From: a virus
Reading direction: 5' to 3' (one strand)
Length of the DNA stretch: 37,693 bases
Virus record (IMG/VR): IMGVR_UViG_3300031669_004012
Span: 1-37,693 of that record
The notes under the pieces are model-generated. The model saw only the letters and a program-made list of their open reading frames with translations, made no database searches and had not been told where the DNA came from. Positions 3,264-33,664 of the stretch are shown piece by piece; positions within the stretch are counted from its first letter, which is position 1; every line of letters starts with the position of its first letter. A program made the translations under genes and the position numbers.

Positions 3264-4292
3264 CTAATACCCTAAAGGGCATTTTTTTGGATTTAATTTT
3301 AATTTTATTCTAACTTGCTGAAAAGTATCAAATAATTTCCATACAGCAAAAATGGTATGTCTTCCAAAATCATGTTTTTGAAGATTAGTAGAATATACTT
3401 TATCCATAAAGCTACAAGGAATCATTTCCATAGATGGACTGATATATGCTGATTGTCTTGCTGCTTCACAAGTAGTAATAAAAAATTCCATATTTTTTGG
3501 AACTTCAATGTGATTAGCAAGACAACTGTCCATACCTACTTTGGAGATTGCTTTATTGTTTAATGCTAAATCAGAAAATGTTTGTAATTGATCTTTGGAT
3601 GGACGTAATTCTTCATGTAACGATCCTTTACCAACAGGTTTAAATAATAGAAAAATCACTGCATTTAATTTATCTAAATCAACATTATCGTTCCAAGGGT
3701 TGTGTCCTTTTAAAAAACTGAACGCTTTAAATGCTGAGTTACAAGTAAATACAAAATGCATATTTGTTTTTATCCCTGCGGTTTGGAATCTTCTAATAGC
3801 GTCATATGTAAAATCTTTTGAATAATCACTAACTGCAACTGCACCACATAATTTTGATATTTCGATTTGTTCATCTGTGAGATCGATTCCACTTGTGGTA
3901 TAATTCGGAACAACTTGCTTGCTCCGGCAGTATTCTACAATTTCTTTGAAGTTTGGATGATGATTTGGATCCCCACGACCTCCTAAGGCAATTTGATTCG
4001 TGTGAGAATGACATTGATCAACGATAAATTTGAAATTATCTAAAGTCATATGATTTTCTTTATAATGACCTTGATAACAAATATCACACTTGTTTTTACA
4101 ATGTCCCATTATACCCACGTCTAATAATGCAGGCATATCCAAACAAAAAGGATCGGGTTTTCCGTTGATCCCTCTAATGAGTTCGAAACCACTTTCTGTA
4201 TTGAAGTACATTTGGTAATCATCATTTGAATAATATTTGTCATATTTTGCTATGACGTTTATTCCGTTTTCACTCGCCTTTAGAATCTTCAT
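3264..4292 (-). CDS. radical SAM enzyme with SPASM-like C-terminal cysteines
   Basis: A 342-residue radical SAM protein. The cluster-binding motif is CKNKCDIC (C65, C69, C72), which coordinates the 4Fe-4S cluster that cleaves S-adenosylmethionine. A GGRGDP segment (about 104-109) corresponds to the SAM-binding GGE-type motif of this superfamily. The C-terminal part has C257, C275, C293 in a 'C...I.PS.EMIPC' context and a final C338, which resembles the SPASM/twitch domain that binds auxiliary Fe-S clusters in peptide- and protein-modifying enzymes. It is too long for QueE and lacks obvious QueE features. The gene overlaps its upstream neighbour by 23 bases. The substrate is unknown; peptide or protein modification is an inference from the SPASM-like tail. 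Confidence 0.85.
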   Translation of the reverse strand: MKILKASENGINVIAKYDKYYSNDDYQMYFNTESGFELIRGINGKPDPFCLDMPALLDVGIMGHCKNKCDICYQGHYKENHMTLDNFKFIVDQCHSHTNQIALGGRGDPNHHPNFKEIVEYCRSKQVVPNYTTSGIDLTDEQIEISKLCGAVAVSDYSKDFTYDAIRRFQTAGIKTNMHFVFTCNSAFKAFSFLKGHNPWNDNVDLDKLNAVIFLLFKPVGKGSLHEELRPSKDQLQTFSDLALNNKAISKVGMDSCLANHIEVPKNMEFFITTCEAARQSAYISPSMEMIPCSFMDKVYSTNLQKHDFGRHTIFAVWKLFDTFQQVRIKLKLNPKKCPLGY

Positions 4293-5191: not shown

Positions 5192-5914
5192 ATGGGTATT
5201 AAAAATTCATTTGCGAAGGTGCCAAACAATAGGTTTAGCAGAAACTTCGGTGGAACAATTGCCGGAGTAGCAGATCCTTATTTAACTGGTTATCACTTTG
5301 TGTATTTTGCAGGGATACCAGCTTCCCTTCCACAATATGCAGATAATATGACTAAACAAGAGATTGCAAATATTCTAGCGGCTGCCTGTCTATCGGTTAC
5401 ACCACCTGGAGGAACTCTCAACAAAGTAGAGTTTACAGGACTTGGTGGAATTAAATGGTCAGTTCCTGGAAACATTGATTACGGAAACTCTGTTTCTGTA
5501 AAATTCTTAGAGTTCAACGGAACCCCACTTCTGAACATTATGCATGGTTGGATCAAAATGATAAGAGATTATCGTTCTGGTGTATCCAATCTTATTGATG
5601 GTGAAGAAGGAGCTGGTTATACTAAATCGACATATGCTTGCGTTATGTATTACTGGACAACAGCACCTGATGGAAAAACAGTAGAATATTATGCAGCATA
5701 CGATGGAGTATTCCCAACAAAAGATCCACAAGACCTTTTTACAAGTGATGTGGAAACAGTAGGAAGATTAGATGTCGAGATTGAATTTAATTGCGATTAT
5801 GTATGGCATGAACCATGGGTTAAAGAAAAATGCCAAAGTCTATCTGACCAAGTATACGGAATTAAATCAAAACTTATTGAAACTTATGGTGATACTATTA
5901 GCTCATCAACTTAA
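5192..5914 (+). CDS. tail tube protein (T4 gp19-like)
   Basis: 240 residues that fit the inner tail tube, which stacks as hexameric rings inside the sheath. Supporting segments are the beta-rich core with SVSVKFLEFNGTPLLNIMHGW (a 'v.F.e......l..W' pattern seen in gp19-type tube proteins), followed by YYAAYDGVFPTK and VEIEFNCDYV, which resemble the conserved C-terminal strands. A GGAGG site stands just upstream of ATG 5192. The gene is separated from the sheath gene by the minus-strand cassette and the HAD gene, which is unusual since sheath and tube genes are normally neighbours. The call is by pattern and context; a different tube-like structural protein is possible. Confidence 0.75.
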   Translation: MGIKNSFAKVPNNRFSRNFGGTIAGVADPYLTGYHFVYFAGIPASLPQYADNMTKQEIANILAAACLSVTPPGGTLNKVEFTGLGGIKWSVPGNIDYGNSVSVKFLEFNGTPLLNIMHGWIKMIRDYRSGVSNLIDGEEGAGYTKSTYACVMYYWTTAPDGKTVEYYAAYDGVFPTKDPQDLFTSDVETVGRLDVEIEFNCDYVWHEPWVKEKCQSLSDQVYGIKSKLIETYGDTISSST

Positions 5915-5957
5915 GAATGTAACTTAAATAAAAAGAGAATAGAAAGGAGATAAACTC

Positions 5958-6749
5958 ATGTTTAAAGGATTTGATGTAAAGTATCCAGAATACGAGGTAA
6001 TTACACCTCAAACAAATTTATCGTATCACGTTAGATCATTGAATGTTCAAGAAGAAGAACGTTTAAAAGCAAGTTTTTTAACACCGTCGAAGGCAAATGA
6101 CCATTTGAATAAATGTATATTTGATTCATTCGTCAAGAAACCCAAGACAATCACCAGTTATGATTCTTGGTTAAAAAATACAACTTTAAAAGATAGAGAT
6201 GCTTTGTTATATGGTCTCTATCATATTACTTATGAAGATATCCGAAATTATGATGTTACTTGTGGTTCTTGCACAAAGCCATATTCTGTAACTGTTAAAG
6301 CATCTGAAACATTCAATATCAATTTCTATGAAGAAGGTAATATTCTAGAAAAAGTAGTTGAAGTTACTTTACCTATTTCTGAAGGTGTTTTTGCTACTAT
6401 AAAACAACCCACGCTTTGGGATGAAATTATGGGATTGCAAAGTGGTGCAGGCGGAAATAATACAAAAAATTTGGATATTATAACAGAAACTTTGATAATT
6501 TCAAAGTTTTATCAAAATCCAAAAGGCGGTGGGGATACAGTTATTTATTCTGAAAGAGAAGATATAATTGATGCATATAGATCTCTTCCTGCTAAAGATA
6601 AAAGATATATTTATGCCGAATATAAAGATCATTTTGGTAAATTTGGAATTGAGTTGAATATGTTAAGTGGGTGTACACATTGTGGTAATGAGGCGGTTAT
6701 AAATATAGATCTGGTCGGCAATTTTTTTCGCATGGTGTACTCGATCTAA
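5958..6749 (+). CDS. baseplate hub / tail assembly protein (T4 gp26-like), zero-frame product
   Basis: A 263-residue protein with two half zinc sites, CGSC (about residues 99-102) and CTHC (about 239-242), and the ending INIDLVGNFF, matching the general design of gp26-type baseplate proteins of T4-like phages. Its RBS (AAGGAGA) is strong. The position, immediately before a gp51-like fragment and a gp25 gene, resembles the T4 order 25-26-51. The last residues after NFF (RMVYSI) look unconserved, and coding sequence continues in the +1 frame, so this stop may only end the short version of a frameshifted protein. It probably acts in assembly rather than in the mature virion. Confidence 0.7.
   Translation: MFKGFDVKYPEYEVITPQTNLSYHVRSLNVQEEERLKASFLTPSKANDHLNKCIFDSFVKKPKTITSYDSWLKNTTLKDRDALLYGLYHITYEDIRNYDVTCGSCTKPYSVTVKASETFNINFYEEGNILEKVVEVTLPISEGVFATIKQPTLWDEIMGLQSGAGGNNTKNLDIITETLIISKFYQNPKGGGDTVIYSEREDIIDAYRSLPAKDKRYIYAEYKDHFGKFGIELNMLSGCTHCGNEAVINIDLVGNFFRMVYSI
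6722..6729 (+). promoter_or_regulatory. candidate ribosomal frameshift site at end of the gp26-like gene
   Basis: Seven T residues (6722-6728) followed by C are read AAT TTT TTT CGC in the zero frame. A Phe tRNA on the last TTT could shift one base forward onto TTC, entering the frame that codes for the gp51-like segment (+1), or slip back two. A -1 shift would hit a stop after eight codons. Neither frame is proven. Confidence 0.45.
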
Positions 6750-6942
6750 ATTAGTAGACGAGTACATTGACCAACTTGAAAAAAATATATACTCTTGTAT
6801 GGAGATGAGTAAACAATCGTACGATCAGGTTATTCAAATGCCTGTTAAAAGGTTTTATTCATACTTAAAGTGGAAAAGCGATTTAGAAGAGGAAAAGAAA
6901 AAATTAGTTGTCGAAGAAATTCTTGGTGGAATGGGTGGTTAA
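6730..6942 (+). CDS. gp51-like C-terminal extension, probably reached by frameshift
   Basis: An open stretch in the +1 frame relative to the gp26-like gene, ending at TAA 6940-6942. It reads AWCTRSKLVDEYIDQLEKN, then about 50 residues with YDQVIQMPVKRFYSYLKWK and a Glu/Lys-rich end. Short helical proteins of this kind ('Y..v..mP...r..y...k') follow gp26-type genes in many T4-like phages. In this frame there is no ATG, GTG or TTG before 6799, and ATG 6799 has no ribosome binding site, yet the coding-like text clearly starts upstream. The simplest explanation is a fused product of about 327 residues made by a shift at 6722-6729, in the manner of G/GT tail assembly chaperones. If it starts at 6799 instead, the protein is only 47 residues. 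Confidence 0.6.
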   Translation, partial: AWCTRSKLVDEYIDQLEKNIYSCMEMSKQSYDQVIQMPVKRFYSYLKWKSDLEEEKKKLVVEEILGGMGG

Positions 6943-6945: not shown

Positions 6946-7377
6946 ATGGCAAATTTATTAGATAGATTTAGACAGGATATTACTGGATCTGATAATCGAC
7001 TCAGAGACTTCCTTCCTAAAATCACATCCGCAGGTGATTTCCAAAAAATTACTAATTTAAATGTGATTATTGCTTCTTGGAGTAATATTCTAATTACTCC
7101 AAGACGAACACATCTTCACGATCCTGAGTATGGAAGTGATTTACATTTAATGGTATTTGAACCTGTAGATGATCAAACCATTGACCAAATCAAAAGAGAA
7201 ATTGAATACAGAATATTGAGATATGATAATCGAGCAGGCATTAATGATATTCAAATCAGATTGCTTCTAAATAGAAAAGGGTTTGAGGTTGATATTTCTA
7301 TTGATTACGAGGGAGAAAAAGGGACTCTCAATTTAAAATTTGACGATTTAACTTATGGAAGTTCAACGGGGCAATAA
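6946..7377 (+). CDS. baseplate wedge protein (GPW/gp25 family)
   Basis: 143 residues with the gp25 pattern: an N-terminal helix, then a segment on R-T-H--PEYGSDLHLMVFEP (about 54-73), the conserved 'EYGs.l' joint, and 'D.T..QI+REIE.RI...D.RA.I..I' after it. The protein nucleates sheath polymerisation at the baseplate and is one of the few baseplate parts conserved in all contractile systems. A weak GGTGG site precedes ATG 6946, three bases after the stop of the gp51-like segment. Its own stop overlaps the next start by one base (TAATG). Confidence 0.9.
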   Translation: MANLLDRFRQDITGSDNRLRDFLPKITSAGDFQKITNLNVIIASWSNILITPRRTHLHDPEYGSDLHLMVFEPVDDQTIDQIKREIEYRILRYDNRAGINDIQIRLLLNRKGFEVDISIDYEGEKGTLNLKFDDLTYGSSTGQ

Positions 7378-12933: not shown

Positions 12934-15642
12934 TTAGTGAAAGTTACCTGCCATAACTCTCTTACTCAGATCATCCATAAATGATCCTGCTTTATCTACA
13001 CCTGAGTTATATACGCTGGTTACATTACTTGCTTGTTGAGTGATTACATTCGATACTTGGTGAAGTTGTTGATTTACTGACTCTCCAAGAGTCTTTAACC
13101 CTTGTAATCCTTCCATCCCTCTTTTTTGCATTTCTTGACCTATTAGTTTACTTGCTACTGTCAAGTCGGATGCTTGCATTTTTGCTATATCTTTTGCTTG
13201 GATAACTTTACCGGTTGCTTTTTCAACAAGTTGCCCTGTTTGATCTATTGCCCATTTCCCTTTTTCAGCGACCCAACTTTTTACATCCCCTGCTACTTTC
13301 ATTCCTTTTTCGGTAAGATTGGCATGTTTACTAAATACAGCAGCTTGTTGCTCAGCCGTCAATGGAGTTGCATTATCTTTAAGAAATTTTAAGAATGCAG
13401 CTTCTCGTTTAGTTCCGTACGCTTTAACTTCACCTTTATCAATTTGACTTCCAAGGAACGACCATTTTTTTTTAGTAAAATGTGGTTCAGATGGGGAACC
13501 AATGAAGCTTCGTCTCATTATCTCAATGGTTTCTGGATCGTAGTTCATATATTCATGTAGATTACTTAACAGGTACTCAGATTGTGATTCGGCTACTGCT
13601 TCTTGAGCAAGTTTTCCTGCCATTCCTAATGCGTGAGCTCTATTTTTTCTAGTCACTGCACTTCCCGACTGATGCTCAGCCAGTTTTGAAATTCCGCCTG
13701 TCAATTTTAATATTTGTGCAGAATCATATCGTTTCATTCCAGTTTCATCAGCTACAGTTTTAGTAGCTTTATCTTTTACTAGATTATTTTTAGCTTTTAT
13801 CTGTTGAGTTAATATATCAATCTCTTTAAATGATTTCATTCTTGCAGGATGAAAAAAATATCTATCTAACCATGTTCCAAATGCTGCTCCTGCACCCAAT
13901 GCAACTAAACCTGCTAAAACGGTTGGAACTGCTCCTGTTATTAAACCAGCTATCATAGACAAAAGATTAGTTGGTATTAGATTTTTAATAAAGTCCATTG
14001 CTAAACCAGCAATATTTAATATACCGCCACCTAACATGCCAAACAATCCAAGAACTCCTTTTCTTTTTTCTCTTTTATTAGCTTTATCTAATTCTTTAGC
14101 CGATGTTTCTGAATGATAATCAATACCTTCTAATAAGTCTACAACTTCCTCTTGTGCTTTACCTGCATCTATTGTTATAAGAGGAGGTAGTTTTTTATTT
14201 TTTTGATCTATTATTAGCTGTTCAATCTGATTTATAGGATGTTGAACATCAATTTCTCCATTATAAAGTTGTCGCAATTCAGCCTGTCTTTGAAAAACTT
14301 TATCCCAAGCATTTACAAATGGTTTTTCTAAAGCATAATTTAAATACTTTCCGACTTTAGTTTTATCTGCTAACCAAGCAAAAGGTTTAGATATTAAACC
14401 TATACCGGATCTTAAAAGACTAAAAACACTCCAACCACCGATAGGTATACCCGTAACTTTTGGATATCTGTTACCCGTTACAAATGATGCCAGATCTCTT
14501 GATGTCTGCGCCGTCATTTTTGTAAATTTAGCAATATTATCCAATCTCCACATTGTTCCAGTATATAATACAGCGACGTTTTCATTTAGCGCTTCAAATG
14601 GATTACTTCTATTTGATAGGTGGCTTCGATAACTTCCTTCTCGTTTAAAAAATCTATAAACAAGTTTGTATGGAATTCCAAACACAGTTCCGACACCTTT
14701 CATAACAAAGGCAAGTTGTCTGAAGTACGGATGTTCAATAAGCATTTTAGTATATATTTGTTGCCATGATGAAACCGTCGCGCCCATAGTATCTTGTATA
14801 GCTAACACAGCTCTTAAGAGACGAATATTAGATGGTTCTTCATATTGAGAATGAGTTTCTCTCATTGCTCTCAAGAAACCTTTGACCATACCAACAGGTT
14901 CTTTATCTCTTTCAGCTTCAACAAATACAGACATTTTTGCTAGAGATCTTATTTGACTTTTTTGAGCAATCTCAGAAATTTCACGACCAGCGGATATTGA
15001 ATCATCAATTCTTGCAAGAATCTTTTCTATCGGTATTACAACTTCAGCAGGGTGGACTTCAACCATACCTCCCTTTTCAACATATCCACCACGAGCCATT
15101 TTCGGAACAGGATCTTTTCTACCGTCAGCTTTTTCTTTTCCTCTAAATATACTTGCAACACTAGAACCAATTCCTTTAAATGCACCGGCAATTGATTCTT
15201 TCATTCTCTCTTTTGCTTTTTGGAAAACATCAGTCTCCATAAATTTAGCAGCGAAATAACCGAATAATGGAGTTGTTCTTGCTAGTGCCATAGCAACCAT
15301 ATTTTGTTTATTATAGTTTATATCTTGACCAATAGCTTTTCCATATTGACCAATAGCATCTTTAGTCGCACGTGCTGTACTCATCGAAATGTCTTGAATA
15401 CCTTTTGTAAATGCTGTGATTGTTTCTCCGAAACGTGAAAGGACTCCATTCATCTGTCTTGCTGATGATTCCGGAGCTTGCCCGTAGTTTATGGACTCAT
15501 CGGTTTCTTCAATTTGTCGTTGGGTAGTCTTTTGCATTTGTGTAATAGTATTAGATACATTACTTATGCCGGATATCCTTTCTTGTTGGGCATCAGACGT
15601 TTTAGTTATACTACCTGGCTCTTGACGTTTATCATTAGCCAT
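12934..15642 (-). CDS. tail tape measure protein candidate
   Basis: 902 residues. Residues about 180-208 read MARGGYVEKGG then VHPAEVVIPI, the 'GG.v..G....VhpgEvVvPi' segment typical of tape-measure proteins. A long Gly/Ala/Leu-rich hydrophobic region lies at about 535-605, as expected for a protein that enters the host membrane, and helical, Gln-rich ends flank it. Tape measures set tail length; at about 0.15 nm per residue this would give roughly 130 nm, an estimate only. It has AAGGAG before the start and is followed by the structural gene above. The coupling with hub and terminase genes on the minus strand fits. Confidence 0.75.
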   Translation of the reverse strand: MANDKRQEPGSITKTSDAQQERISGISNVSNTITQMQKTTQRQIEETDESINYGQAPESSARQMNGVLSRFGETITAFTKGIQDISMSTARATKDAIGQYGKAIGQDINYNKQNMVAMALARTTPLFGYFAAKFMETDVFQKAKERMKESIAGAFKGIGSSVASIFRGKEKADGRKDPVPKMARGGYVEKGGMVEVHPAEVVIPIEKILARIDDSISAGREISEIAQKSQIRSLAKMSVFVEAERDKEPVGMVKGFLRAMRETHSQYEEPSNIRLLRAVLAIQDTMGATVSSWQQIYTKMLIEHPYFRQLAFVMKGVGTVFGIPYKLVYRFFKREGSYRSHLSNRSNPFEALNENVAVLYTGTMWRLDNIAKFTKMTAQTSRDLASFVTGNRYPKVTGIPIGGWSVFSLLRSGIGLISKPFAWLADKTKVGKYLNYALEKPFVNAWDKVFQRQAELRQLYNGEIDVQHPINQIEQLIIDQKNKKLPPLITIDAGKAQEEVVDLLEGIDYHSETSAKELDKANKREKRKGVLGLFGMLGGGILNIAGLAMDFIKNLIPTNLLSMIAGLITGAVPTVLAGLVALGAGAAFGTWLDRYFFHPARMKSFKEIDILTQQIKAKNNLVKDKATKTVADETGMKRYDSAQILKLTGGISKLAEHQSGSAVTRKNRAHALGMAGKLAQEAVAESQSEYLLSNLHEYMNYDPETIEIMRRSFIGSPSEPHFTKKKWSFLGSQIDKGEVKAYGTKREAAFLKFLKDNATPLTAEQQAAVFSKHANLTEKGMKVAGDVKSWVAEKGKWAIDQTGQLVEKATGKVIQAKDIAKMQASDLTVASKLIGQEMQKRGMEGLQGLKTLGESVNQQLHQVSNVITQQASNVTSVYNSGVDKAGSFMDDLSKRVMAGNFH

Positions 15643-23193: not shown

Positions 23194-23553
23194 TTACTCC
23201 TTTTCCCATTTTTTCAAATCTTCTTCTATATTGTTGCGCCATTCTGATAGATTAATGACAGCGTAAGTTTCAAGTGCTGCCCCTGCAAGGGTGAACACTT
23301 TAATCAATTCCTCATATGCTTCAACTGGAGCGGAACCTTCTAAAACATTTTCTCTACAATTGGTTAACCATTCAGGAAGGTTTTGTTTCCACGGTCCGGA
23401 GTAACTTTTTTTAGCTTTTTCTAAATAATTATCAATTAATATAAGAAAGCTTCCTAAGTTTAAACTCTCAACATTGTTATAATCTCCATGAGCACGCTTT
23501 TGATATTCTCGTTCTTTTTGGTACAAGTTACAAACATCTTCAGTTCTATCCAT
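23194..23553 (-). CDS. small helical protein, nucleotide pyrophosphohydrolase-like (weak)
   Basis: 119 residues. The beginning, EREYQKRAHGDYNNVESLNLGSFL with a later YLEKAKKSYSG and TLAGAALETYAVI, resembles the all-alpha MazG-like or phage dNTP-pyrophosphohydrolase-like families that have 'E.......GD' helices. The EExxD metal-binding set typical of MazG is not clear, so function is uncertain. AAAGGAG precedes ATG 23553, which lies inside the end of the TIM-barrel gene (eight-base overlap). Confidence 0.6.
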   Translation of the reverse strand: MDRTEDVCNLYQKEREYQKRAHGDYNNVESLNLGSFLILIDNYLEKAKKSYSGPWKQNLPEWLTNCRENVLEGSAPVEAYEELIKVFTLAGAALETYAVINLSEWRNNIEEDLKKWEKE

Positions 23554-24262
23554 TCAAATGCTCCTTTAAAAAGTGATAATTTTTAATTTTCTTGTCCGTG
23601 TATTCAGGCATATATTCAAGGACAAGATCACCATTCCATTTAATAAATTTCAAATGGTTGACAAATGCCATTAGATTCAAATCACCCTTCCCTGTATTGA
23701 ATGGCATATGTTGTTTTCTTTCAGAATAGATTCTGTTTGATAAATGAATTACTTCGGTGTATGGAAGTAATGTATATAATATTTTGTGATCTAACCAAAT
23801 CTCTTCCGTGTGTGATGTATCAAGACAAAGTCCAAAATATTGTGGATACTCAATACAATATTTTAATATTTCAAGAGGCGATCTTAGTTCTTTCTTTTTT
23901 CTCCACTGAAAATTCTCAATACATAATTTATATTTTGGAAGAGTTTGACTTCCAACATGATCATTGATATAATAATGAATAAAACTGGTGATTAATTTAT
24001 TAGGATGGATTACAAACTTTTCTGTTCCTACTGTTTCATGTATTTTATTCATTAATTTTATTATTTCATATTGTGGTCTTTTTAGAGTATCTAGGGGAAG
24101 GTGAACTACATTTACGTTCACATTGTTTCGTTCTAAGAAGTTCAAGTTACCTTCTGAGTATCTTTCGTATTTGTATAATGCCCATTGTATATTTTCCGGA
24201 ATATAATTAAGATTATATCGGTTATCTTCCCCAAATCCGTATGAGATTGAAACTCGAATCAT
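23546..24262 (-). CDS. AP endonuclease family 2 / sugar isomerase-like TIM barrel protein
   Basis: 238 residues with the strand-end pattern of the EndoIV/xylose-isomerase-like barrel: NVVHLP (about 52-57), FVIHPN, CIENF, GLCLDTSHTEEI, VIHLSNR and MPFNTGKGDLNL, ending in DLVLEYMPE. Those His, Glu and Asp residues are at the sites that bind zinc in the family. It may repair abasic DNA or act on a sugar phosphate; the sequence does not decide, and it is shorter than typical endonuclease IV (about 280 residues). It starts on the FolE2 stop (ATGA overlap), so the two are made together. Confidence 0.72.
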   Translation of the reverse strand: MIRVSISYGFGEDNRYNLNYIPENIQWALYKYERYSEGNLNFLERNNVNVNVVHLPLDTLKRPQYEIIKLMNKIHETVGTEKFVIHPNKLITSFIHYYINDHVGSQTLPKYKLCIENFQWRKKKELRSPLEILKYCIEYPQYFGLCLDTSHTEEIWLDHKILYTLLPYTEVIHLSNRIYSERKQHMPFNTGKGDLNLMAFVNHLKFIKWNGDLVLEYMPEYTDKKIKNYHFLKEHLNG

Positions 24263-25149
24263 ATGTACCGCCTTCCATCAAATCCTCCAGCAATACCTTT
24301 CCAGTTTACAGCTACAGCTTCCGAAGTATGGATGGACTCCTCATGAATACATTTCACAATCCAATCCATAATACCGGGTATGCTATCGACGGCACTTGAT
24401 ATAATTCTTATTGCATCTTCAACAAACATCGGATTTTCTGCTGCAACTCGAGCTATTTCTTGTTCGTCGATTCTTTTGATAATTGGATAAGGTAATGTTG
24501 GTATACTACTTTCAACTGCATCAATTATATCCTCTAACCAAATGTAATGCTTGTCTGTATCTACCTCGGTTAAAATGTGAGCAAACGATCTCTGATTATG
24601 TGGAAATCCAGCTCCATCTAATGCATTACATAATTCAGCAGAGCATGGACAATATGATGAGTATTGAACTGTTACTCCTTGAAAGAATCTAAATCTGTCA
24701 ATTGACGGATGATTTATGTCTCCGCTTTCTTGCACATCTTTGATTTTATAAATCTGTCCCTCGAACTTACACTTGTAGTATATTGGAAATGAATTATCTG
24801 TTTTAATTGATTTTCGATTAATTGGCATTCTGAATTGAAACCTCATAAATGCCGATGACCCTCCAACATTTTTTAACATCATAAAGATGATTTCTTTTAT
24901 TAATTTGCTTTTTAAAGGTAAGTCTAAATAAGGTTTTAATGTTAATAATAATCTTGACATTGAGATCCCTTTTGTGCCTTCGTCTAAATCAGTCATCATT
25001 GTGACATTTGCAGTCAGCTGATGAAAACCTCCATATTTAGATTCTAACTTAAAAGGTACCTCAACATTTTCCACCCCCACCTGTTTAATAGGAATTGTTA
25101 TGTCGGGTAAATCGCATTGAATGTCGGGTAAGCATTCTTTATCTGTCAT
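24259..25149 (-). CDS. folE2: GTP cyclohydrolase IB (FolE2-type)
   Basis: 296 residues. FolE2 converts GTP into dihydroneopterin triphosphate, the first step of folate and of queuosine/7-deazaguanine synthesis. Family marks: GISMSRLLL (61-69), YSSYCPCSAEL (163-173) with the active-site CPCS, GFPHNQRSFA (181-190) and NPMFVEDAIRII in the C-terminal half. I chose ATG 25149 (MTDKECLPDI) with AAGGAG six bases upstream; a longer frame up to 25284 lies within the neighbouring gene and is unlikely. No queC, queD or queE is in this window, so whether it feeds DNA base modification or folate cannot be seen here. Confidence 0.9.
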   Translation of the reverse strand: MTDKECLPDIQCDLPDITIPIKQVGVENVEVPFKLESKYGGFHQLTANVTMMTDLDEGTKGISMSRLLLTLKPYLDLPLKSKLIKEIIFMMLKNVGGSSAFMRFQFRMPINRKSIKTDNSFPIYYKCKFEGQIYKIKDVQESGDINHPSIDRFRFFQGVTVQYSSYCPCSAELCNALDGAGFPHNQRSFAHILTEVDTDKHYIWLEDIIDAVESSIPTLPYPIIKRIDEQEIARVAAENPMFVEDAIRIISSAVDSIPGIMDWIVKCIHEESIHTSEAVAVNWKGIAGGFDGRRYI

Positions 25150-25387
25150 AATATGCTCCTTTATAAAATCCTTCTCTAACAGGATCTTCCCATTTGGGAT
25201 AGTTTGGTATTTCGTGTTCTCTATCATTTGAACACTCAAATAATAATTCGGGGGTATCCCAAAAACCCCTTTGGTGGGCATCATCCCTGACTATCTTTCC
25301 TTTTTCAAGACGGAAATATTTGTCTTCGACGTGATACCTGAGTGTGACTTCTGCTTTGCAGATTGGACAATATCTGTTTTCAAACAT
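25139..25387 (-). CDS. small zinc-binding protein
   Basis: 82 residues starting MFENRYCPICKAEVTLRY. CPIC (7-10) and a later FECSNDREHE provide three Cys and a His for a small zinc site; the rest is polar. GGAG lies about nine bases before ATG 25387. Its end overlaps the FolE2 start by 11 bases, and its beginning overlaps the end of the 131-residue gene. No specific function recognised. Confidence 0.7.
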   Translation of the reverse strand: MFENRYCPICKAEVTLRYHVEDKYFRLEKGKIVRDDAHQRGFWDTPELLFECSNDREHEIPNYPKWEDPVREGFYKGAYYDR

Positions 25388-25686
25388 TTTGGTTCACTCC
25401 ATAAATTTTCTGGGTCGAATTTAACAGCTTGAATGGGGTCGATTTTTTCTTCTATATTGGTATATTTGATTGGCCGGTTAGCTATTTCCTCTTTAAAGAA
25501 ATCGTTAATAGGAGGTTTTTTCATTCCGAAATTATAACGAAAGTCGGAATAGTATTGTTTATACCAAAGTTCTCTATCTCTACGAAAATAGTCCTCCTCG
25601 GTTACAACTTTATAATCGGTTGAGAGGTTGGTACAAGATGATGTTGCCTCGTACCAACCCCACCTCTTCTCATTAGGAACTCCCAC
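25291..25686 (-). CDS. hypothetical protein overlapping the rpoB end
   Basis: 131 residues, no recognised domain; the N-terminal part (PNEKRWGWYEATS, then YFRRDRELWYKQYYSDFRY) is rich in aromatic and charged residues. I chose GTG 25686, nine bases after AGGAG, inside the last codons of the beta-subunit gene; TTG 25695 touches the site. Its 3' end overlaps the small zinc protein by 97 bases, so the last third could be less constrained. Direct coupling to the polymerase gene makes a polymerase-associated role possible, without sequence evidence. Confidence 0.6.
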   Translation of the reverse strand: MGVPNEKRWGWYEATSSCTNLSTDYKVVTEEDYFRRDRELWYKQYYSDFRYNFGMKKPPINDFFKEEIANRPIKYTNIEEKIDPIQAVKFDPENLWSEPKCLKTDIVQSAKQKSHSGITSKTNISVLKKER

Positions 25687-28600
25687 GATAATCAACTCCT
25701 AAGACTGTAAGATAAGAGTTCAACAGTTTAACAGATTCAGGCATTGGGTCTAAATCTTTTGAGTCTTCTATACCAACTCTACCCGGGTCAATGCAGTTTC
25801 TGATGTAATCGTTCTTCAAATCTATACAATCTGATTTTGTTGTCAGAAATTCAAATAAATTCTTTGGAGCATCATGACCAATAATACATGCTGTTTCCAT
25901 TTCACCACATCTTTGTCCACCTTTGTTTTTTCGACCCCCTAATGGTTGCAAGGTTCTTTTCGCATATGACCCGATTCCCCTTGCTGCTAATTTTTCTTCT
26001 GCTATATGAACCATTCTGAAGAAATAAAGATATCCGGCTGCAATATCATTTAATAGATATTTTCTTGCAATAGGATCATATATTTTATATTTAAAAGTAG
26101 ATCCTGTATATTGTAATGCTTGAGTCAAATCTTTTAATTGACAAGATTCAAATGGAGGCTGAATAATCGACAGAGTTTCAATAAATTCTTCATCTATTTT
26201 TTTCGGCAGTTGCTCTATGAATTGTTTAATATACCATTTATCTTTTGTTTTGTCAATTATATCAATGTATCCTAACAGATATGACTTAAGATCTTCTTGA
26301 CTTCCTTCTTCTAATATTTTTAGAAGGTTTTGTTGTAGATCATATAAAGACATTGACAAATGTAACTCAAATAATTGACCGATATTCATACGAGAGATTA
26401 TACCCAATGGATTGATGCATATATCAAGATGTCTTCCATCTGGCAGTTGTGGCATTTTATCATGTGGTAATATTCTTGATATAACTCCTTTGTTTCCATG
26501 TCTATTGGCAATTTTATCCCCGACCTTGATTGATCGAACATGAATGCCATACATTTCAACATAAATACCGTTAACCCTTTCTTTCTTATTTTTATATTTA
26601 CCTACGAAAGAAAATAATTCTAAGTCTTTCTCTCTGATGAATTTAACAGCTTGATCTCGGGGTAGTTTCTCTTTAACGATAGATCTCAGAGCTAATTCTT
26701 TTTCTTTTTGCTTTTCAATAGTTTTCTCTACCCATTCTTTATATTCTGGAATGTCTCCATTCCATTCGTTAGCAAATATTTTTACACCTGAAATGATATA
26801 AGATTTTTCTGCTTCCAAAGGTGTTGCTTCTGAAAAAACTGAATATAAATCATCTGCTGATAGAGTTTTCATAATTGCATACGGATCTCCCTGTGCGACT
26901 CTATCAAGAGTACTTGGTAATGGTTTATATTCATCGTTTGTTAATGTCAATAAAACCTTATGGGGAGGAATAGTAAATGATAAATCTTTGAAATGGGCTG
27001 AAGTGAATGTTTCTTCATTTACTAACCTGTCGGATATGATAATTCCATCTTCATAGTTATGACCATAATAAATCATAACTCCTGTTAGAAGATTTCGGCC
27101 GAAAGTGATTTCGCCATTCTGAACAAAGTTGCTTTCAGCTAATATTTCCCCAGCTTTGAATTTGCTACCTACACTGACATAAACTTTCATTAAATCCATA
27201 TGTTCAACATAAATATTTCTATATGAAACGTCAAAGATGTCAACCGTTTTATCATCATAAACAACCATTAAATATTTTTCATCAAGGTGAACGACCTCAC
27301 CATCTTTTTTAGCACACTTGATAAATTGTGTATGCTTTGTATATAAACCTTCACACCCGGATTTAATCATCGGTTGGTCAAAGTCTTTTAACATGATTGC
27401 TTGCCTCATTTGTGATGATGCCATTTGTAATCTTGTTTGATCATCATGCTCACAGAATGGGGTAAACGACACAGGTATTGAAATGGGTTGTTTCTCGCAT
27501 ATATCGCTTGTAAAACGGAGTTCGTCATCCAACTTGACATTAGGGATGAGGTTTTGTAGAACACCGCAATTATCGCGGTCTGGGGTGTCTACTGGACAAA
27601 TACGACCGAACATTGTTGGACATATATCCCTTAAATGTTTAGGAATGTTTTCCCTTTTAAATCCACCGGGACCCAAAAGACTTATCCTTGATAATTTGGT
27701 TAATTCTTCAATTGGGTTAATTGAAAAATCGAACTGAACAATATCTGATACATTACATTCTGTTAATATCATAGATGAATTAATATTGAATTTTGGAGCT
27801 TTTGATGTTCTGTTTGAAAAGCACATATCGAAAATAATTTTTGAAAGCTTTGCAAATATCATATATTCAAAACATCTAACTCTTTTATTTATAAATAGAG
27901 TATCATCTACATCTCCTGTTGCGATTGTATGAACCAACTCGTCTAACAATGATCCTGTTTGAAGTAAATTTTTTGTAAATATATCAACTTGCGGAATTAA
28001 ATCAAGAGCATATACAATATCATGCCCTTTTGATTTAGAATTATATCTTGAATACATACGACCTATCTCTAATATAAAATCGTCCTGTGTGTCGGTTTTT
28101 AATTCATCGTAAATCATTTTACATTCAGATACTAATATATCCATCAACTCGATTTTACCTAAGTCATCTAATTTGACATTTGCTAAATCAAATTTCTTGA
28201 TCATTTCGTCAACCCCAAAATATGCAAACATCAAGATAGATAACGGAACCTTTTTTCCCAAAAAACTTACTTTGATAAATGGTTGTTCTCTATCTTTGAA
28301 GATCATTAGGGTTGCGACATTGGTTCTTAATTTAATATTTTCTCCTCTTGTAACAATGGGGATATCAAATAGTTGAAATAAAGGGATTTTTCTACGCCCG
28401 TTTATTACAATATAATTATCGTCAACTAATTTAGGAAGATGTAAACTCAAATCAATATTTGCTGTTCCCTTTTGCAATTTAATTGCAAGGGTTTGTTTTA
28501 TCGTCTTTGATAATTCTCCAGACGAAAATCTTGATTCCTTTATGTCCAGTTCATTCAACTGGAATCCTAAATCTATTGCAGGTTGGAGTATTTGTCTTGT

Positions 28601-28693
28601 TACGGGTAAAATCTGTTTGTAGTCATTCACTCGAAGTGTGAAGATGTTTTTATCTTCATTTTGAATCTTAAAGATTGGATTAATTATGTTCAA
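25673..28693 (-). CDS. rpoB: RNA polymerase beta subunit, phage-encoded
   Basis: 1006 residues (E. coli beta has 1342), a compact but complete beta subunit. Seen in order: SRISLLGPGGF (335-345) as the fork/rifampicin region, FGRICPVDTPD (362-372), FCEHDDQTR (413-421), YEDGIIISDRLV (547-558), KVGDKIANRHGNKG (723-736), INPLGIISRMNIGQ and the C-terminal YAKRTLQPLGGRKNKGG with RCGEMETACI. The lineage-specific insertions of bacterial beta are missing. Start is TTG 28693, five bases after GAGGAGGAG. It is not split into separate polypeptides as in AR9 and phiKZ phages. Together with beta-prime it should form a virus RNA polymerase core; alpha, omega and sigma genes are not in the window. Confidence 0.95.
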   Translation of the reverse strand: MNIINPIFKIQNEDKNIFTLRVNDYKQILPVTRQILQPAIDLGFQLNELDIKESRFSSGELSKTIKQTLAIKLQKGTANIDLSLHLPKLVDDNYIVINGRRKIPLFQLFDIPIVTRGENIKLRTNVATLMIFKDREQPFIKVSFLGKKVPLSILMFAYFGVDEMIKKFDLANVKLDDLGKIELMDILVSECKMIYDELKTDTQDDFILEIGRMYSRYNSKSKGHDIVYALDLIPQVDIFTKNLLQTGSLLDELVHTIATGDVDDTLFINKRVRCFEYMIFAKLSKIIFDMCFSNRTSKAPKFNINSSMILTECNVSDIVQFDFSINPIEELTKLSRISLLGPGGFKRENIPKHLRDICPTMFGRICPVDTPDRDNCGVLQNLIPNVKLDDELRFTSDICEKQPISIPVSFTPFCEHDDQTRLQMASSQMRQAIMLKDFDQPMIKSGCEGLYTKHTQFIKCAKKDGEVVHLDEKYLMVVYDDKTVDIFDVSYRNIYVEHMDLMKVYVSVGSKFKAGEILAESNFVQNGEITFGRNLLTGVMIYYGHNYEDGIIISDRLVNEETFTSAHFKDLSFTIPPHKVLLTLTNDEYKPLPSTLDRVAQGDPYAIMKTLSADDLYSVFSEATPLEAEKSYIISGVKIFANEWNGDIPEYKEWVEKTIEKQKEKELALRSIVKEKLPRDQAVKFIREKDLELFSFVGKYKNKKERVNGIYVEMYGIHVRSIKVGDKIANRHGNKGVISRILPHDKMPQLPDGRHLDICINPLGIISRMNIGQLFELHLSMSLYDLQQNLLKILEEGSQEDLKSYLLGYIDIIDKTKDKWYIKQFIEQLPKKIDEEFIETLSIIQPPFESCQLKDLTQALQYTGSTFKYKIYDPIARKYLLNDIAAGYLYFFRMVHIAEEKLAARGIGSYAKRTLQPLGGRKNKGGQRCGEMETACIIGHDAPKNLFEFLTTKSDCIDLKNDYIRNCIDPGRVGIEDSKDLDPMPESVKLLNSYLTVLGVDYRGSS

Positions 28694-28695: not shown

Positions 28696-28872
28696 TTACT
28701 CCTCCTCATACTGTTTTTTAAGACTTTCTAAAAGTACGTCGTCTTCAATATAATATACTACGCTTTCAGAACAGGCATTTAATATTAACTGACCTAATCG
28801 AAGGTCTGGATGTTTATACCAGACCTTCGATACCATTCGTAATACTTCATTGATTCTGTTGGGGTCTCTCAT
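28696..28872 (-). CDS. small DUF1040/YihD-like protein between rpoC and rpoB
   Basis: 58 residues beginning MRDPNRINEVLRMV, with HPDLRLGQLILNAC in the middle and an acidic end. The 'R.NEVL......W...PDL.L.QL' core resembles the small YihD/DUF1040-type helical proteins of bacteria; function unknown. Its ATG overlaps the beta-prime stop (ATGA), and its last codons (GAG GAG GAG) are the ribosome binding site of rpoB, which starts two bases after its stop. It is therefore translated with both polymerase genes. A near-perfect hairpin lies inside it. Confidence 0.75.
   Translation of the reverse strand: MRDPNRINEVLRMVSKVWYKHPDLRLGQLILNACSESVVYYIEDDVLLESLKKQYEEE
28797..28831 (-). other. 13-pair perfect hairpin inside the small gene
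   Basis: The arms 28797-28809 (ATCGAAGGTCTGG) and 28819-28831 (CCAGACCTTCGAT) are exact inverse complements around a nine-base loop. No U-run follows, so it is not an intrinsic terminator. It lies in codons for SKVWYKHPDLR and could regulate, pause or be cut between beta-prime and beta translation. Confidence 0.7.
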
Positions 28873-31553
28873 TCGATATACTCCCCTTTTAAAATTTTAT
28901 CCATTATACCAGAATATTTTCCTTCGTTAAGAATACCTTGGAGAATACTTCTCTTTGGATTTGAGAATGCCATTGCTAATATCCAACTCTCTTGGTTTGG
29001 AACAGATTGAATTGAATAATAATCCGGAGCTATTAAATGACGATTATTTAATAATCTCCATTTTTGATGATTCTTCCACATTAACTGAGCCACGACACAT
29101 TCAAAATGGACATGGTAAATATCTTTATCATATACTTCAAATAGCTCTGAAACTATATCTGTATATGTTTTATTCTTGAACTTATGCAGGAGCTGAGATA
29201 CTGATGCAAGATCACCGATAATATCTTTTTGTCTCATTGACTCTGTTTCGGTGTCCTGTCCTTGTATTACAGCTGAACCTGACGTATGGAATGTCCTGAG
29301 AACTAATTGTGTCCCACGCTCACCAAGAGTTTGAGCAGCTATGATTCCAACGAATCTGCTGTTTAATTTTTTATGTAAATCTCCATAACAAGTCTGACAT
29401 AATTTGGGTGATTTACATAATATCGGAGTTCGAATCCATATAGTTTTTCCGATTATATCTTTGTAATTTTGCTTGGTGATTAACTCAAGAGTTCCTTTAT
29501 TTGACTGGTATTTGTTGACTAACATTCTAGCTTTTCTTTCAGTTTTCACATATACTTCCAAACAATCTGTAGTTCCACAATCTTCTAACTCTGTATGAAT
29601 TTGGAGGTTAGCACAAGTAAAAATTAATTTTCTTGAAAGATATCCTGATGTTCCTGTATTCAGCGCAATGTCAAGAAGACCTTTTCGGCATCCGTATGTT
29701 GAATAAAAGAACTCTTCTTCTGATAATCCTTCGACTAAATTATGTTTGATTGGTATTGGCAAAATTTCTCCGTCGAAATTTGATACAAATCCTCGGGTCA
29801 TGATTATCTGTTTAACCTGGTCCCAACTTCCTCTAGCACCAGATTCAATCATGTATGCGTATTCAAAGTTTTCTCTTAAAGCTTTTGTAATTCCCTTATT
29901 CGATGATGCAACTAATTGTTGTCTGATTGTGTCTTTCTCATAAATTTTATCCCTTAATAATGTTAAGGAATCCGATTGAAAGTTTTCCAGTGACATAGTG
30001 CAACCAAATAAAGTTGCATATGTGAAACCTATTGCTTTTATATTATCCAAAACTTTAACAATTTCATCAATTGGATATCTATCTTTTATATCATTCAAAA
30101 TGTCTAATAATTTCTTTTCATTGACAACTTCTTCAACTCTTGGATAATCATCTGGAAGGGAATTGTTGAAAATATTGATGCCTGTTTGATCGTCCAGTTG
30201 ACCATCAAAGACACCTGTTGTTAAGAAATAAATTCCTAAAATAATATCCTGACTTGGAGTTGTTGTTAAAGTTTCATTTGATGGACTGCTTAAATTTTTG
30301 ATAGCTGCAATTTTTTCTATTATTTCATCTTTTGCTCCTTCTGTTACAGGAATATAAACTGCCATTTGGTCTCCATCAAAGTCAGCATTGAATGGAGGAC
30401 ACACTAACGGATGAATTTTAATAACTTGATCTGATGTAATCAAAATTTTAAATCCCAACATTCCTAATCTATGCAAAGATGGTTGTCTATTCAAGATACA
30501 CATTTGACCTTCAACAACGTCCTTACATATTTTAAAAAGATCAGGTTTCTTTAATTCAATACATCTATCAACAAAATCAATAGCTTTATTTAACAACTTA
30601 TATTTACCTACCTGAATAATTCGTTTTGCAATAGGAAGTTTGAACATTTCTAATGCCATAAAATATGGTAGTTTACATTCATTCAAAGATAATGAAGGAT
30701 CTGGAGTTATAACAGCTCTACCCGAAAAGTCAATCCTTTTTCCTAAAATGTTTCCACGAATTAACCCTTCCTTCTTTGCCATTTTTTCAAGGATACGATT
30801 ATATAATTCATTTACATCTTTTTGTAGTTGTTTGAAATAAGTATAATATAAATTTTTATCTCTTTGAATGTTAAGAATTGTTCCTTGCATTAACTCTTTT
30901 TTGGTTAAGATTTGAACATAATACCTGTTAATTTTATCCATTAAGTGTTTGCCGCCTCCGCCTCTTGATGCAGGTCTCAAGTCTGGAGGAAGAACAATTA
31001 CTTGATGGATCAGAAGACTATCAATATTAAGTAAAACATTTTTCCAGTCTTCAATTCCTTCCTCTGCCATTTGTGTAGCAACATCAAAAACTAGTTTATA
31101 AACGGCATCGGTCTTCTCATAGATTTGCACTCCACGGGGTCTTTGTGTTTCATCGTAATTTACAACATGCTCTGTTCCATCAACATACATAAAACTTTTT
31201 TCATTTCGCATCAAATCATCAAGAGCTGATTTAAAAGTTTTACCTGCAATCTCAACTACGAGATCATAAAATAATGGGTTGACCACTGGAATGGGTAATA
31301 TAATTTTAGCAAATCGAGTTCGTCTAACATCACTATTGACAATATCGACGTGGCATAAATCACATTTGCCTCCAGTTTTTGGATTCGAGGGTCCATAATA
31401 TGTCCCACATTGGCAAGTGTAATTTTTTACTGGTCCAAAAATTTGCTCGGAAAATAAACCCTCAGGATGGTATTTCTTTTTTGCTATGAGTTTTAGAGAC
31501 GTCACTTCGTCTAAATTTTCACAAAAGTTTCTATAACTAAGAATTTTTGGCAT
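28869..31553 (-). CDS. rpoC: RNA polymerase beta-prime subunit, phage-encoded
   Basis: 894 residues (E. coli 1407), compact and unsplit. Visible: zinc-binding zipper region with C47, C49, C64, C67; IDFSGRAVITPDP (about 274-286); CILNRQPSLHRLG (352-364); the catalytic NADFDGDQM with D391, D393 and D395; bridge helix and trigger loop around SGARGSWDQVKQ, GCRKGLLDIALNTGTSGY and TFHTSGSA; a second zinc site with CQTCYG; and a C-terminal SWILAMAFSNPKRSILQ region. I chose ATG 31553 (MPKILSYRNF), ten bases after GAGGAG, over an upstream TTG that overlaps that site. The upstream gene stops one base before. Confidence 0.95.
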   Translation of the reverse strand: MPKILSYRNFCENLDEVTSLKLIAKKKYHPEGLFSEQIFGPVKNYTCQCGTYYGPSNPKTGGKCDLCHVDIVNSDVRRTRFAKIILPIPVVNPLFYDLVVEIAGKTFKSALDDLMRNEKSFMYVDGTEHVVNYDETQRPRGVQIYEKTDAVYKLVFDVATQMAEEGIEDWKNVLLNIDSLLIHQVIVLPPDLRPASRGGGGKHLMDKINRYYVQILTKKELMQGTILNIQRDKNLYYTYFKQLQKDVNELYNRILEKMAKKEGLIRGNILGKRIDFSGRAVITPDPSLSLNECKLPYFMALEMFKLPIAKRIIQVGKYKLLNKAIDFVDRCIELKKPDLFKICKDVVEGQMCILNRQPSLHRLGMLGFKILITSDQVIKIHPLVCPPFNADFDGDQMAVYIPVTEGAKDEIIEKIAAIKNLSSPSNETLTTTPSQDIILGIYFLTTGVFDGQLDDQTGINIFNNSLPDDYPRVEEVVNEKKLLDILNDIKDRYPIDEIVKVLDNIKAIGFTYATLFGCTMSLENFQSDSLTLLRDKIYEKDTIRQQLVASSNKGITKALRENFEYAYMIESGARGSWDQVKQIIMTRGFVSNFDGEILPIPIKHNLVEGLSEEEFFYSTYGCRKGLLDIALNTGTSGYLSRKLIFTCANLQIHTELEDCGTTDCLEVYVKTERKARMLVNKYQSNKGTLELITKQNYKDIIGKTIWIRTPILCKSPKLCQTCYGDLHKKLNSRFVGIIAAQTLGERGTQLVLRTFHTSGSAVIQGQDTETESMRQKDIIGDLASVSQLLHKFKNKTYTDIVSELFEVYDKDIYHVHFECVVAQLMWKNHQKWRLLNNRHLIAPDYYSIQSVPNQESWILAMAFSNPKRSILQGILNEGKYSGIMDKILKGEYIE

Positions 31554-31554
31554 C

Positions 31555-31770
31555 TCAAGAGATCTCCTCTTTTTCTGCAAGTGATTCTAATAAATATTCT
31601 GCCAGAATCGTTAAATGCAGTTTGATTTTTTTGGCTACTATTTTTTCTAATGAAGGCATCAATACTTCCATTATTTTTTGTGCATCTTCTTCTTTAATAA
31701 TTGTGTCATGTTTATCCAACTCTTCTTTAATTTTATCTTGGATATAATTGTCTAAAGGGTGCTTCTGCAT
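31555..31770 (-). CDS. small helical protein between the E2-like gene and rpoC
   Basis: 71 residues, predicted entirely helical, rich in Lys, Glu and Leu (DKIKEELDKHDTII to LLESLAEKEEIS), suggesting a coiled coil. ATG 31770 has AAGGAG nine bases upstream and overlaps the 3' end of the E2-like gene by 38 bases. Its TGA is one base from the beta-prime start. No family recognised; its place between conjugation and polymerase genes suggests translational coupling, possibly an omega-like or adaptor subunit, but similarity to omega is not visible. Confidence 0.7.
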   Translation of the reverse strand: MQKHPLDNYIQDKIKEELDKHDTIIKEEDAQKIMEVLMPSLEKIVAKKIKLHLTILAEYLLESLAEKEEIS

Positions 31771-32200
31771 CGTGTATTTCTCCTTTGTCAAAGTTAACAT
31801 TTATTTTCATAAAACCATCGACTGGTTTTGTTTCGTAATCTTTTTGATTAGGTCTAAAGTGAGATTCATCAAAATAATAAACTTCAAGTCTATTAATTAA
31901 AACATTTAATAGACAATTTATATCCGTAACTTCCGCACCATACTCCTCATCTCTTAGACAAAGTTCATCTGTATTCAAATCAGCGTTTGGGTGACTTCCG
32001 AAAATTCTAACTTCACTTAGTTTGTTGTTGAATCTTTTAATAATAAGACCTTCTAAATGTAATTTCTCATGAATTTTTGTTATTGTTTTCGGAACTCCAT
32101 CATCTATAATAAATTTAGGAATTATTTTTCCAACGAAAATATCATAATCAATTGATACATTTTCTTTACTTCCTGGTATATATAAATGCTTATGTTCCAT
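31733..32200 (-). CDS. E2-like ubiquitin-conjugating-fold protein
   Basis: 155 residues. The decisive segment is HPNADLNTDELCL, where H70-P71-N72 and C81 reproduce the eukaryotic E2 signature HPN...ICL with the catalytic Cys nine rather than eight residues after Asn. It is preceded by beta strands (LIIKRFNNKLSEVRIF) and followed by a helix (VTDINCLLNVLINRL) and a YYFDESHF segment, the order of the UBC fold. C81 should accept the Ubl from an E1 as thioester. AAGGAGGAG stands before ATG 32200, which overlaps the previous stop by one base. Bacterial Prok-E2 families differ widely, so the exact class is unknown. Confidence 0.75.
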   Translation of the reverse strand: MEHKHLYIPGSKENVSIDYDIFVGKIIPKFIIDDGVPKTITKIHEKLHLEGLIIKRFNNKLSEVRIFGSHPNADLNTDELCLRDEEYGAEVTDINCLLNVLINRLEVYYFDESHFRPNQKDYETKPVDGFMKINVNFDKGEIHDAEAPFRQLYPR

Positions 32201-33099
32201 TATGCTCCTCCTTCTGTTTGTAATATATGAATTTCATTGTCTATTAGAACTGGTAAAAATATTAAACTTTTACTTTTATTCTTTATAGCATTTTTAAGAA
32301 CTTCGATAACGTCCTCGGGGTGTTTTAAACTGTTTTGAGGAATAATCTGATACGTTGTTTTTGCAACCCTTGGTATTTCAAAAACTTCCCTGGCTATCGA
32401 ACCTCTTTCTTGAACTGCTACTTTAAGAGGAGCTTTTTTATTTCTATTTAATATAGGTTGTATAACTTCCTCTAATTTTGATATTCTATTTATATTATCA
32501 TCTGTATCATATATCAAGTCTGGATAAGATTTTGATTCTTTAATACTTTTTAACATTACTGATTGAATTATGTCAATATCAATATATTTAATAGATTGTC
32601 CTTTTAATAATTCTTCAATAACATTACTACATATTAAATCAGTTGCATAAGAAGCTGCTCTACTAATTTCATGTTTTGATAGTTGTATAACATATTCGCC
32701 TTTTGGTCTTGTTTGATCTTCTAGTTTCTTTTGAAAATCGAGTATTAGAAACTTTCCATTGATAAACATCTTCATATCAATATTCAAGTCTCTTTTGCCA
32801 AATATATTTCGGCAATCAATTATTAAGTCTGATTCTGGGAGATCGGTAATACCTTCAATGTAAAACTCTGCTCTTGGTTGAATCTCTATATTATAATTTA
32901 AAAGATTACGATATAGTACATGAACTTTTGGTTCATCAATATCAATAGGTTGAAATATTCCTATTTCTGTATCTTTTTTATCAACTATATCCTTATCTAT
33001 TAATATAAGTTTACTAACCTTAGAACATTCTACCAGATGTTTACAAAGGTGTCCTCCCAACGTTCCGGTTCCAATTACAGTTACAGTGCTGAGATTCAA
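32200..33099 (-). CDS. ThiF/E1-like protein with degenerate adenylation site
   Basis: 299 residues starting at TTG 33099 (AAGGAG nine bases upstream). The Rossmann beginning VTVIGTGTLGGHL (6-18) and LILIDKDIVD (31-40) are those of ThiF/E1 adenylating enzymes, followed by DLIIDCRN (91-98). The Asn and Arg that normally follow in 'N..RQ' are absent: the corresponding segment reads KKDTEIGIFQP. The C-terminal third is not obviously part of the fold. It may be an inactive partner that supports the active E1 as SAE1-type subunits do, or it may use a different chemistry. No active-site Cys is evident. The terminal Glu-Gly-Gly-Ala is encoded by the Shine-Dalgarno of the next gene. Confidence 0.78.
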   Translation of the reverse strand: MNLSTVTVIGTGTLGGHLCKHLVECSKVSKLILIDKDIVDKKDTEIGIFQPIDIDEPKVHVLYRNLLNYNIEIQPRAEFYIEGITDLPESDLIIDCRNIFGKRDLNIDMKMFINGKFLILDFQKKLEDQTRPKGEYVIQLSKHEISRAASYATDLICSNVIEELLKGQSIKYIDIDIIQSVMLKSIKESKSYPDLIYDTDDNINRISKLEEVIQPILNRNKKAPLKVAVQERGSIAREVFEIPRVAKTTYQIIPQNSLKHPEDVIEVLKNAIKNKSKSLIFLPVLIDNEIHILQTEGGA

Positions 33100-33123
33100 A
33101 GGGTTAATTCTCCTTTCGGAAGG

Positions 33124-33154
33124 ATTGGGTGGGGACCCAATCGAATCCCCACCC
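33124..33154 (-). other. two overlapping hairpins after the Ubl gene
   Basis: Arms GGGTGGGGA (33127-33135) and TCCCCACCC (33146-33154) form a nine-pair stem with a ten-base loop. An alternative seven-pair stem uses 33124-33130 (ATTGGGT) and 33135-33141 (ACCCAAT) with a GGGG loop, sharing bases with the first. Only one can form at a time. They lie 14 bases past the Ubl stop and about 25 before the E1-like start; without a U-run they are not a standard terminator. Confidence 0.6.
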
Positions 33155-33167
33155 GCCAGGCTCCTAT

Positions 33168-33617
33168 TTAGCAGCCTTTACGACCGGAAGGTTTCATGAA
33201 CTCAAGAGAATCCCCCACTTTCAATTCATAATCGCCGGAAACTTCTTTTCCATTAACCAGACCTGTGGAGAGTTTGTCCACGTTCAACACCTCACGCAGG
33301 AACTCACCGACTTCGGCAACACTTTTCCCTTCAACAGGAAAGGCGCCGGTACTGGCACCACATGATACACGGATTGTGGTTGTGGTTTTTTGACCGAAAG
33401 CAGCAGACGGTTTGGTCATAACGCTGTGGCCATCAAATGCAATACCTTCCAGCTTATCCGAAACATCCGGATTTCCATCGGCCAGCAGGATAGCGTCGAT
33501 AACGACGTCTTTACGTTTTTTGGTCAATCCCGGCAGTCCCAGGTTGTCCACACAAAGACGACGAAGCTCTTTAAGATTCATTCCTTCTAAATTTTCACGA
33601 GTATATTCATTAGCCAT
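33168..33617 (-). CDS. ubiquitin-like (beta-grasp) protein with N-terminal SAP-like segment
   Basis: 149 residues. The C-terminal half (about 77-149) follows the MoaD/ThiS/PRTRC-C plan: TTTIRVSCG strand, helix SVAEVGEFLREVL, STGLVNGKEVSGDYELKVGD and SLEFMKPSGRKGC. It ends in Gly-Cys, not the usual Gly-Gly; Cys might be removed or the last Gly used after processing. Residues 7-48 (LEGMNLKELRRLCVDNLGLPG, RKDVVIDAIL) resemble a SAP or Rho-N helical domain that binds nucleic acid. Composition is near 50% G+C, far above the neighbours. GGAG precedes the ATG. The likely role is the modifier protein of the locus. Confidence 0.82.
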   Translation of the reverse strand: MANEYTRENLEGMNLKELRRLCVDNLGLPGLTKKRKDVVIDAILLADGNPDVSDKLEGIAFDGHSVMTKPSAAFGQKTTTTIRVSCGASTGAFPVEGKSVAEVGEFLREVLNVDKLSTGLVNGKEVSGDYELKVGDSLEFMKPSGRKGC

Positions 33618-33637
33618 TTTAAAATTCTCCTTACAAA

Positions 33638-33652: not shown

Positions 33653-33664
33653 ACGTTCGGCTTA

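Follow-up and report, generated by a model that had tools for sequence, protein, structure and literature searches.

We identified, in an uncultured, distantly T4-like tailed phage, a gene that, judged from its sequence and from that of its relatives, almost certainly yields both a short and a long protein, with ribosomes skipping one letter at UUU-C. The product of this gene is very probably a T4 gp26-family tail assembly chaperone made in two forms, the long form arising by a +1 slip from UUU to UUC at UUU_CGC. The window, i.e. the whole stretch of DNA analysed, comprises positions 1–37,693 (37,693 nucleotides) of IMG/VR record IMGVR_UViG_3300031669_004012 and contains the following features around and related to this gene:

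5192..5914, + strand: tail tube-like protein, immediately upstream (matches to phrog_21400/21257, virion structural protein, and a weak one to Phage_TTP_14, E 0.015)
5945..5949, + strand: Shine-Dalgarno AGGAG of the zero-frame gene, read from the sequence
5958..6749, + strand: zero-frame ORF, short form (TAC-N), T4 gp26-like, 263 aa (PF12322, phrog_150, AlphaFold2/Foldseek)
6723..6731, + strand: putative shift site TTT TTT CGC, with E-site UUU, P-site UUU and A-site CGC; the skipped base would be C6729
6729..6749, + strand: zero-frame tail RMVYSI and stop; termination 4–9 codons past the shift codon is conserved
6730..6942, + strand: +1-frame extension, putative C-terminal domain of the long form, 70 aa past the shift (AWCTRSK...GGMGG), open and conserved in relatives
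6946..7377, + strand: gp25-like baseplate wedge protein, directly downstream (PF04965 above cut-off)
12934..15642, − strand: candidate tape measure protein, 902 aa, suggested by a weak phrog tape-measure match (E 0.02)

The zero-frame gene ends in ...AAT TTT TTT CGC ATG GTG TAC TCG ATC TAA (stop at 6747–6749) and is overlapped by the +1 frame, which is open from 6709 to its stop at 6940–6942, so that coding-like text in this frame indeed starts ahead of the zero-frame stop, as the original prediction had stated. The overlap includes TTTTTTTC at 6722–6729. The prediction had also held that the +1 frame has no start codon with a ribosome-binding site before 6799, which agrees with our finding that its earliest start codon is ATG 6799 and that the letters preceding this codon, AAAAAAATATATACTCTTGT, contain no Shine-Dalgarno sequence. 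The probability of 78 open codons by chance is about 0.0008 under a crude base composition, and in-frame TTT TTT CGN is present a single time among the roughly 12,300 codons in genes of the window. Fusion of 5958..6728 with 6730..6942 would give a product of 327 aa with the predicted junction LVGNFF-AWCTR and the tryptic peptide FGIELNMLSGCTHCGNEAVINIDLVGNFFAWCTR, while a −2 fusion would give GNFFFAWCTR. Read from 6728, the −1 frame encodes SHGVLDLN and then stops, the eight codons expected from the prediction; a −1 shift of the heptamer type (X_XXY_YYZ) was ruled out on this ground.

Scans of IMG/VR recovered relatives at about 40–100% identity, which after removal of duplicates represented 124 distinct zero-frame proteins; the gp26-like gene was also present on two contigs in metagenome bins labelled as archaeal. 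All 124 distinct relatives carry an in-frame [UUU/CUU]_CGN near the gene end, mostly as UUU_UUU_CGN (n = 121), with UUG_UUU_CGA, UUA_UUU_CGA and UUU_CUU_CGU found once each. P-site and A-site codons are thus UUU_CGN in 123 sequences and CUU_CGU in one, and the first (E-site) codon is UUU in 122 of 124. The zero-frame stop follows 4–9 codons past the site and the +1 frame then remains open for 58–90 codons in the 124 relatives, whereas the −1 frame closes early after the site in most of them. Three divergent relatives (L280, L324 and L325) have about 80–120 extra residues inside the short form and retain the +1 layout.

Comparison of the relatives' sequences thereby established the two-form layout and the shift site, and it also revealed synonymous constraint on the site. 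On the tree, UUU/UUC changes are absent from the two Phe columns of the site, whereas 11 further Phe columns show 2–32; departures of the Arg codon from CGN (to AGR) are likewise absent, versus 9–23 class changes at 8 other Arg columns. The third base of this CGN changed 41 times and is free among the 124 relatives (57 T, 36 C, 18 A, 13 G), and the sequence downstream is similarly free over much of its length. Since the Phe and Arg codons are locked at the site, the constraint acts on the RNA and not on the protein. Beyond the site, pN/pS is 0.42 between the zero-frame stop and the first common Met and 0.36 after that Met, versus 0.40 in the gene body. These sequence comparisons speak strongly for a programmed shift into the +1 frame, and the predicted joining of gp26-like and gp51-like products by a programmed frameshift is supported by conservation of site and extension in the 124 distinct relatives.

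The original prediction had left the shift as either +1 or −2. Both reach the same frame, and +1 now stands as the likelier of the two. A −2 slip within the run of Us, of the kind used by phage Mu (PMC5009743), would produce the same long form with one additional Phe; tRNA-Phe could re-pair on UUU in 121 sequences, and the first UUU codon is constrained as well (122/124). The extension is, however, retained behind UUG_UUU_CGA and UUA_UUU_CGA, where re-pairing would need UGU or UAU, and the C that follows UUU in all 124 sequences is a requirement of UUU to UUC re-pairing and not of a −2 shift; the constraint on the first UUU can be explained by the E-site effect known from influenza A PA-X. We therefore regard −2 slippage as unlikely. 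The UUG and UUA variants break the U run and so favour the +1 slip over polymerase slippage too. In that scenario one T would be lost, or two gained, on the T6–7 run in part of the mRNAs; six or seven Ts are present in most relatives and the phage of the window encodes its own multisubunit RNA polymerase, but six-T runs are short for polymerase slippage and the layout persists in relatives whose site reads just TTGTTTC, TTATTTC or TTTCTTC, which makes this explanation very improbable.

Slightly less probable still is that the +1 ORF constitutes a small gene of its own, expressed from an internal start (ATG 6799, 47-aa product) or by coupling. ATG is frequent at the CME position (first ATG of the +1 frame in 40 of 68 relatives), but several relatives have Ile in place of this Met, the window lacks a Shine-Dalgarno sequence for it, the stretch from the zero-frame stop to the CME Met is under constraint equal to that of the gene body, and the synonymous lock of the shift site would be without reason. 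Neither a conserved start nor a conserved ribosome-binding site was found in the +1 frame among the relatives, and a separate gp51-like gene with its own ribosome-binding site, which would have spoken against a frameshift, occurs in no close relative; internal start and coupled re-initiation were rejected accordingly. A sequencing error or pseudogene, for which nothing speaks beyond the frame break itself, is refuted because 124 distinct sequences, drawn from many samples, share the frame break.

The UUG and UUA variants, together with the C that invariably follows UUU and the E-site-like constraint on the first UUU, lead us to infer the direction and mechanism of slippage, P-site slippage by +1 being favoured and not proven. 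Most ribosomes would terminate at 6747–6749 and release the 263-aa short form. A minority would pause with UUU (6726–6728) in the P site and the Arg codon CGC in the A site, where peptidyl-tRNA-Phe may slip one base forward from UUU to UUC and skip C6729, and decoding would resume at GCA to give the long form. Product ratio and chaperone function are likewise deduced: if the pair works like lambda G/GT, the tape measure protein would be coated by numerous short chaperones and a few long ones, and the additional domain of the long form would recruit tail tube subunits. The expected client is the candidate tape measure protein, whose gene lies 6 kb from the gp26-like gene on the opposite strand. 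A minor long form would fit a low shift rate, such as the approximately 1% at PA-X or the 30:1 ratio of G/GT.

Searches for stimulators recovered neither consensus pairs indicative of a pseudoknot or hairpin 3′ of the site (mean z about −0.85) nor a position with notable pairing to the anti-Shine-Dalgarno sequence, and no phage-encoded tRNA was found within the window. There was no avoidance of UUU_C elsewhere in the window (UUU_C 58/402; in-frame UUU_CGN, four occurrences), and hence the motif is either insufficient alone or leaks little. CGC is, together with CGG, the rarest Arg codon in the window (8/493), but with any third base tolerated in CGN among the relatives, scarcity of one particular codon cannot be the rule.

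The zero-frame protein is gp26-like, as predicted: it matches PF12322 (T4_baseplate) with 29.2 bits (cut-off 24.5) over model positions 2–219 of 219 and phrog_150 (baseplate hub) with an E-value of 6.6e-8, and its AlphaFold2 model (pLDDT 88) retrieved predicted T4-like baseplate hub/gp26 proteins in Foldseek (e.g. Q19CJ6, E 1.2e-7). Among solved structures, no significant match to this model was found (HK97 tail assembly chaperone 2ob9, E 1.4). Structures of the zero-frame body and the +1 extension were predicted separately and not as a fused protein; the extension is predicted to form a three-helix element. Its proposed gp51-like identity held in part, with position, length and an MP...L...EEE motif resembling gp51, while its hhalign matches to the T4 gp51 C-terminus (E 0.021, probability 2%) and to cyanophage gp51 (E 0.045) were below significance. 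As the likeness to gp51 and the cyanophage extensions lies in position, length and MP motif only, common descent of the window extension with the cyanophage and T4 gp51 extensions is no more than likely. The gp25-like gene follows the gp26-like gene in 118 of 121 relatives, and a single query found a tube-like gene immediately before it in only 35 of 106, which counts against the chaperone reading. The short and long forms most likely make up a tail assembly chaperone pair that is the counterpart of T4 gp26/gp51.

Lambda G/GT, described by Xu et al. 2004, comprises a short form and a C-terminally extended long form, produced in a 30:1 ratio because ribosomes occasionally shift close to the 3′ terminus of a gene beside the tail tube gene, and tail chaperone shifts of −1, −2 and +1 have all been recorded (reviewed in PMC5009743). 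Chaperone genes of this type are situated between those for the major tail protein and the tape measure protein, and the chaperones bind the latter protein and do not occur in the virion. The phage gene would resemble G/GT in having two products with a common N-terminal part, the long one made by a frameshift near the 3′ end; unlike it, the gene has no detectable sequence kinship to lambda G, its fold match to HK97 2ob9 is weak, and its site is UUU_CGN. According to the account of Vladimirov et al. 2022 in citing papers (PMC10885494, PMC12846349), a short chaperone gene occurs alongside a long one in some T4-like phages. The zero-frame protein belongs to the gp26 family of T4, and T4 gp51 consists of a gp26-like body with a C-terminal extension, as does the putative long form, but T4 gp26 (short) and gp51 (long) are, unlike in the window phage, two separate genes on opposite strands.

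Cyanophage-type (Kyanoviridae) gp26 genes end in a heptamer U_UUU_UU[C/A/G] followed by a −1 extension in 56 of 57 cases, and this extension matches the T4 gp51 C-terminus (hhalign E 1.5e-6). The order of tail tube, gp26 and an other-frame extension at the 3′ end is shared with the window, with the frame being −1 there and +1 here. The cyanophage extension is annotated as a short gp51 or left unannotated, as in S-CAM8 (L037), where no gene is annotated at the gp26 extension. The annotated short gp51 is probably this frameshift extension, which would be why the first ~200 residues were earlier remarked to be missing from cyanophage gp51 (PMC3037559). In cyanophage S-SCSM1 (L038, near 2185) the gp51 extension lies in the +1/−2 frame and not in −1, reflecting either a real switch or a sequencing indel. 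Takahashivirus-type phages PBS1, AR9 and BpSp, and also Goe21, have a gp26-like gene with an open −1 extension that is not annotated as a fusion; the Takahashivirus body is homologous to that of the window (22–24% identity) and the frame-shifted C-terminal extension is alike, although in frame −1. BpSp slips on U_UUU_UUU, and the run of PBS1 has only five Us. In a Pseudomonas phage, the extension has an overlapping TAATG start. The logic of a two-form chaperone thus appears to persist while direction and site are swapped (+1 at UUU_CGN here, −1 at a heptamer in cyanophages, −1 in PBS1-like phages, duplication in T4).

At the UUU_CGU site of influenza A PA-X, a +1 shift was demonstrated by mass spectrometry, with a rate of about 1% and an effect of the E-site codon, and the authors of that work suggested a class of UUU_C sites, with CGN preferred, that is active in diverse eukaryotes (PMC3498833); in plant amalgaviruses UUU_CGN is prevalent with all four N (PMC5052127). 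The phage site has the properties of this class (in-frame UUU followed by C, A-site CGN, conservation in the overlap), with the +1 direction supported indirectly by the UUG/UUA variants, and like PA-X and the amalgaviruses it combines a UUU_C P-site tetranucleotide and A-site CGN with no obvious structure. The E-site codon is constrained as in PA-X but is UUU in the phages and UCC in PA-X, and unlike these eukaryotic RNA viruses the host of the site is a tailed DNA phage with prokaryotic translation. The UUU_CUU_CGU relative resembles the CUU slip site of prfB (RF2). Until now, most descriptions of such skip sites have come from viruses of animals, plants and fungi, and as far as the literature was searchable we found no phage example of a UUU_CGN shift site. 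Earlier reports cover both the assignment of T4 gp26/gp51 and +1 shifts in tail chaperones, whereas a UUU_CGN site conserved across an uncultured phage clade appears to be new. On balance, we consider it likely that the UUU_CGN class operates on prokaryotic ribosomes and sets the ratio of chaperone forms across this clade, with E-site UUU as co-determinant. The more than 120 natural UUU_CGN variants tell which positions matter, indicating UUU or CUU followed by CG, a free third base and a preferred E-site UUU, and are directly testable with reporters in bacteria.

Other genes of the window include adjacent and unsplit RNA polymerase subunits beta (1006 aa, 25673–28693, − strand) and beta′ (903 aa, 28869–31580, − strand); in PBS1-like phages RNA polymerase subunits are split. 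A gene group at 32200–36120 (− strand) encodes two ThiF/E1-like proteins and a JAB peptidase like PRTRC protein A, as well as a small protein (33168–33617, − strand) with a C-terminal GRKGC, a ubiquitin-like tail, and resembles a phage-borne conjugation set of the PRTRC type. The window further encodes a FolE2 GTP cyclohydrolase (24259–25284), a radical SAM protein (3264–4292) and a CbiR-like protein (23546–24262), all on the − strand.
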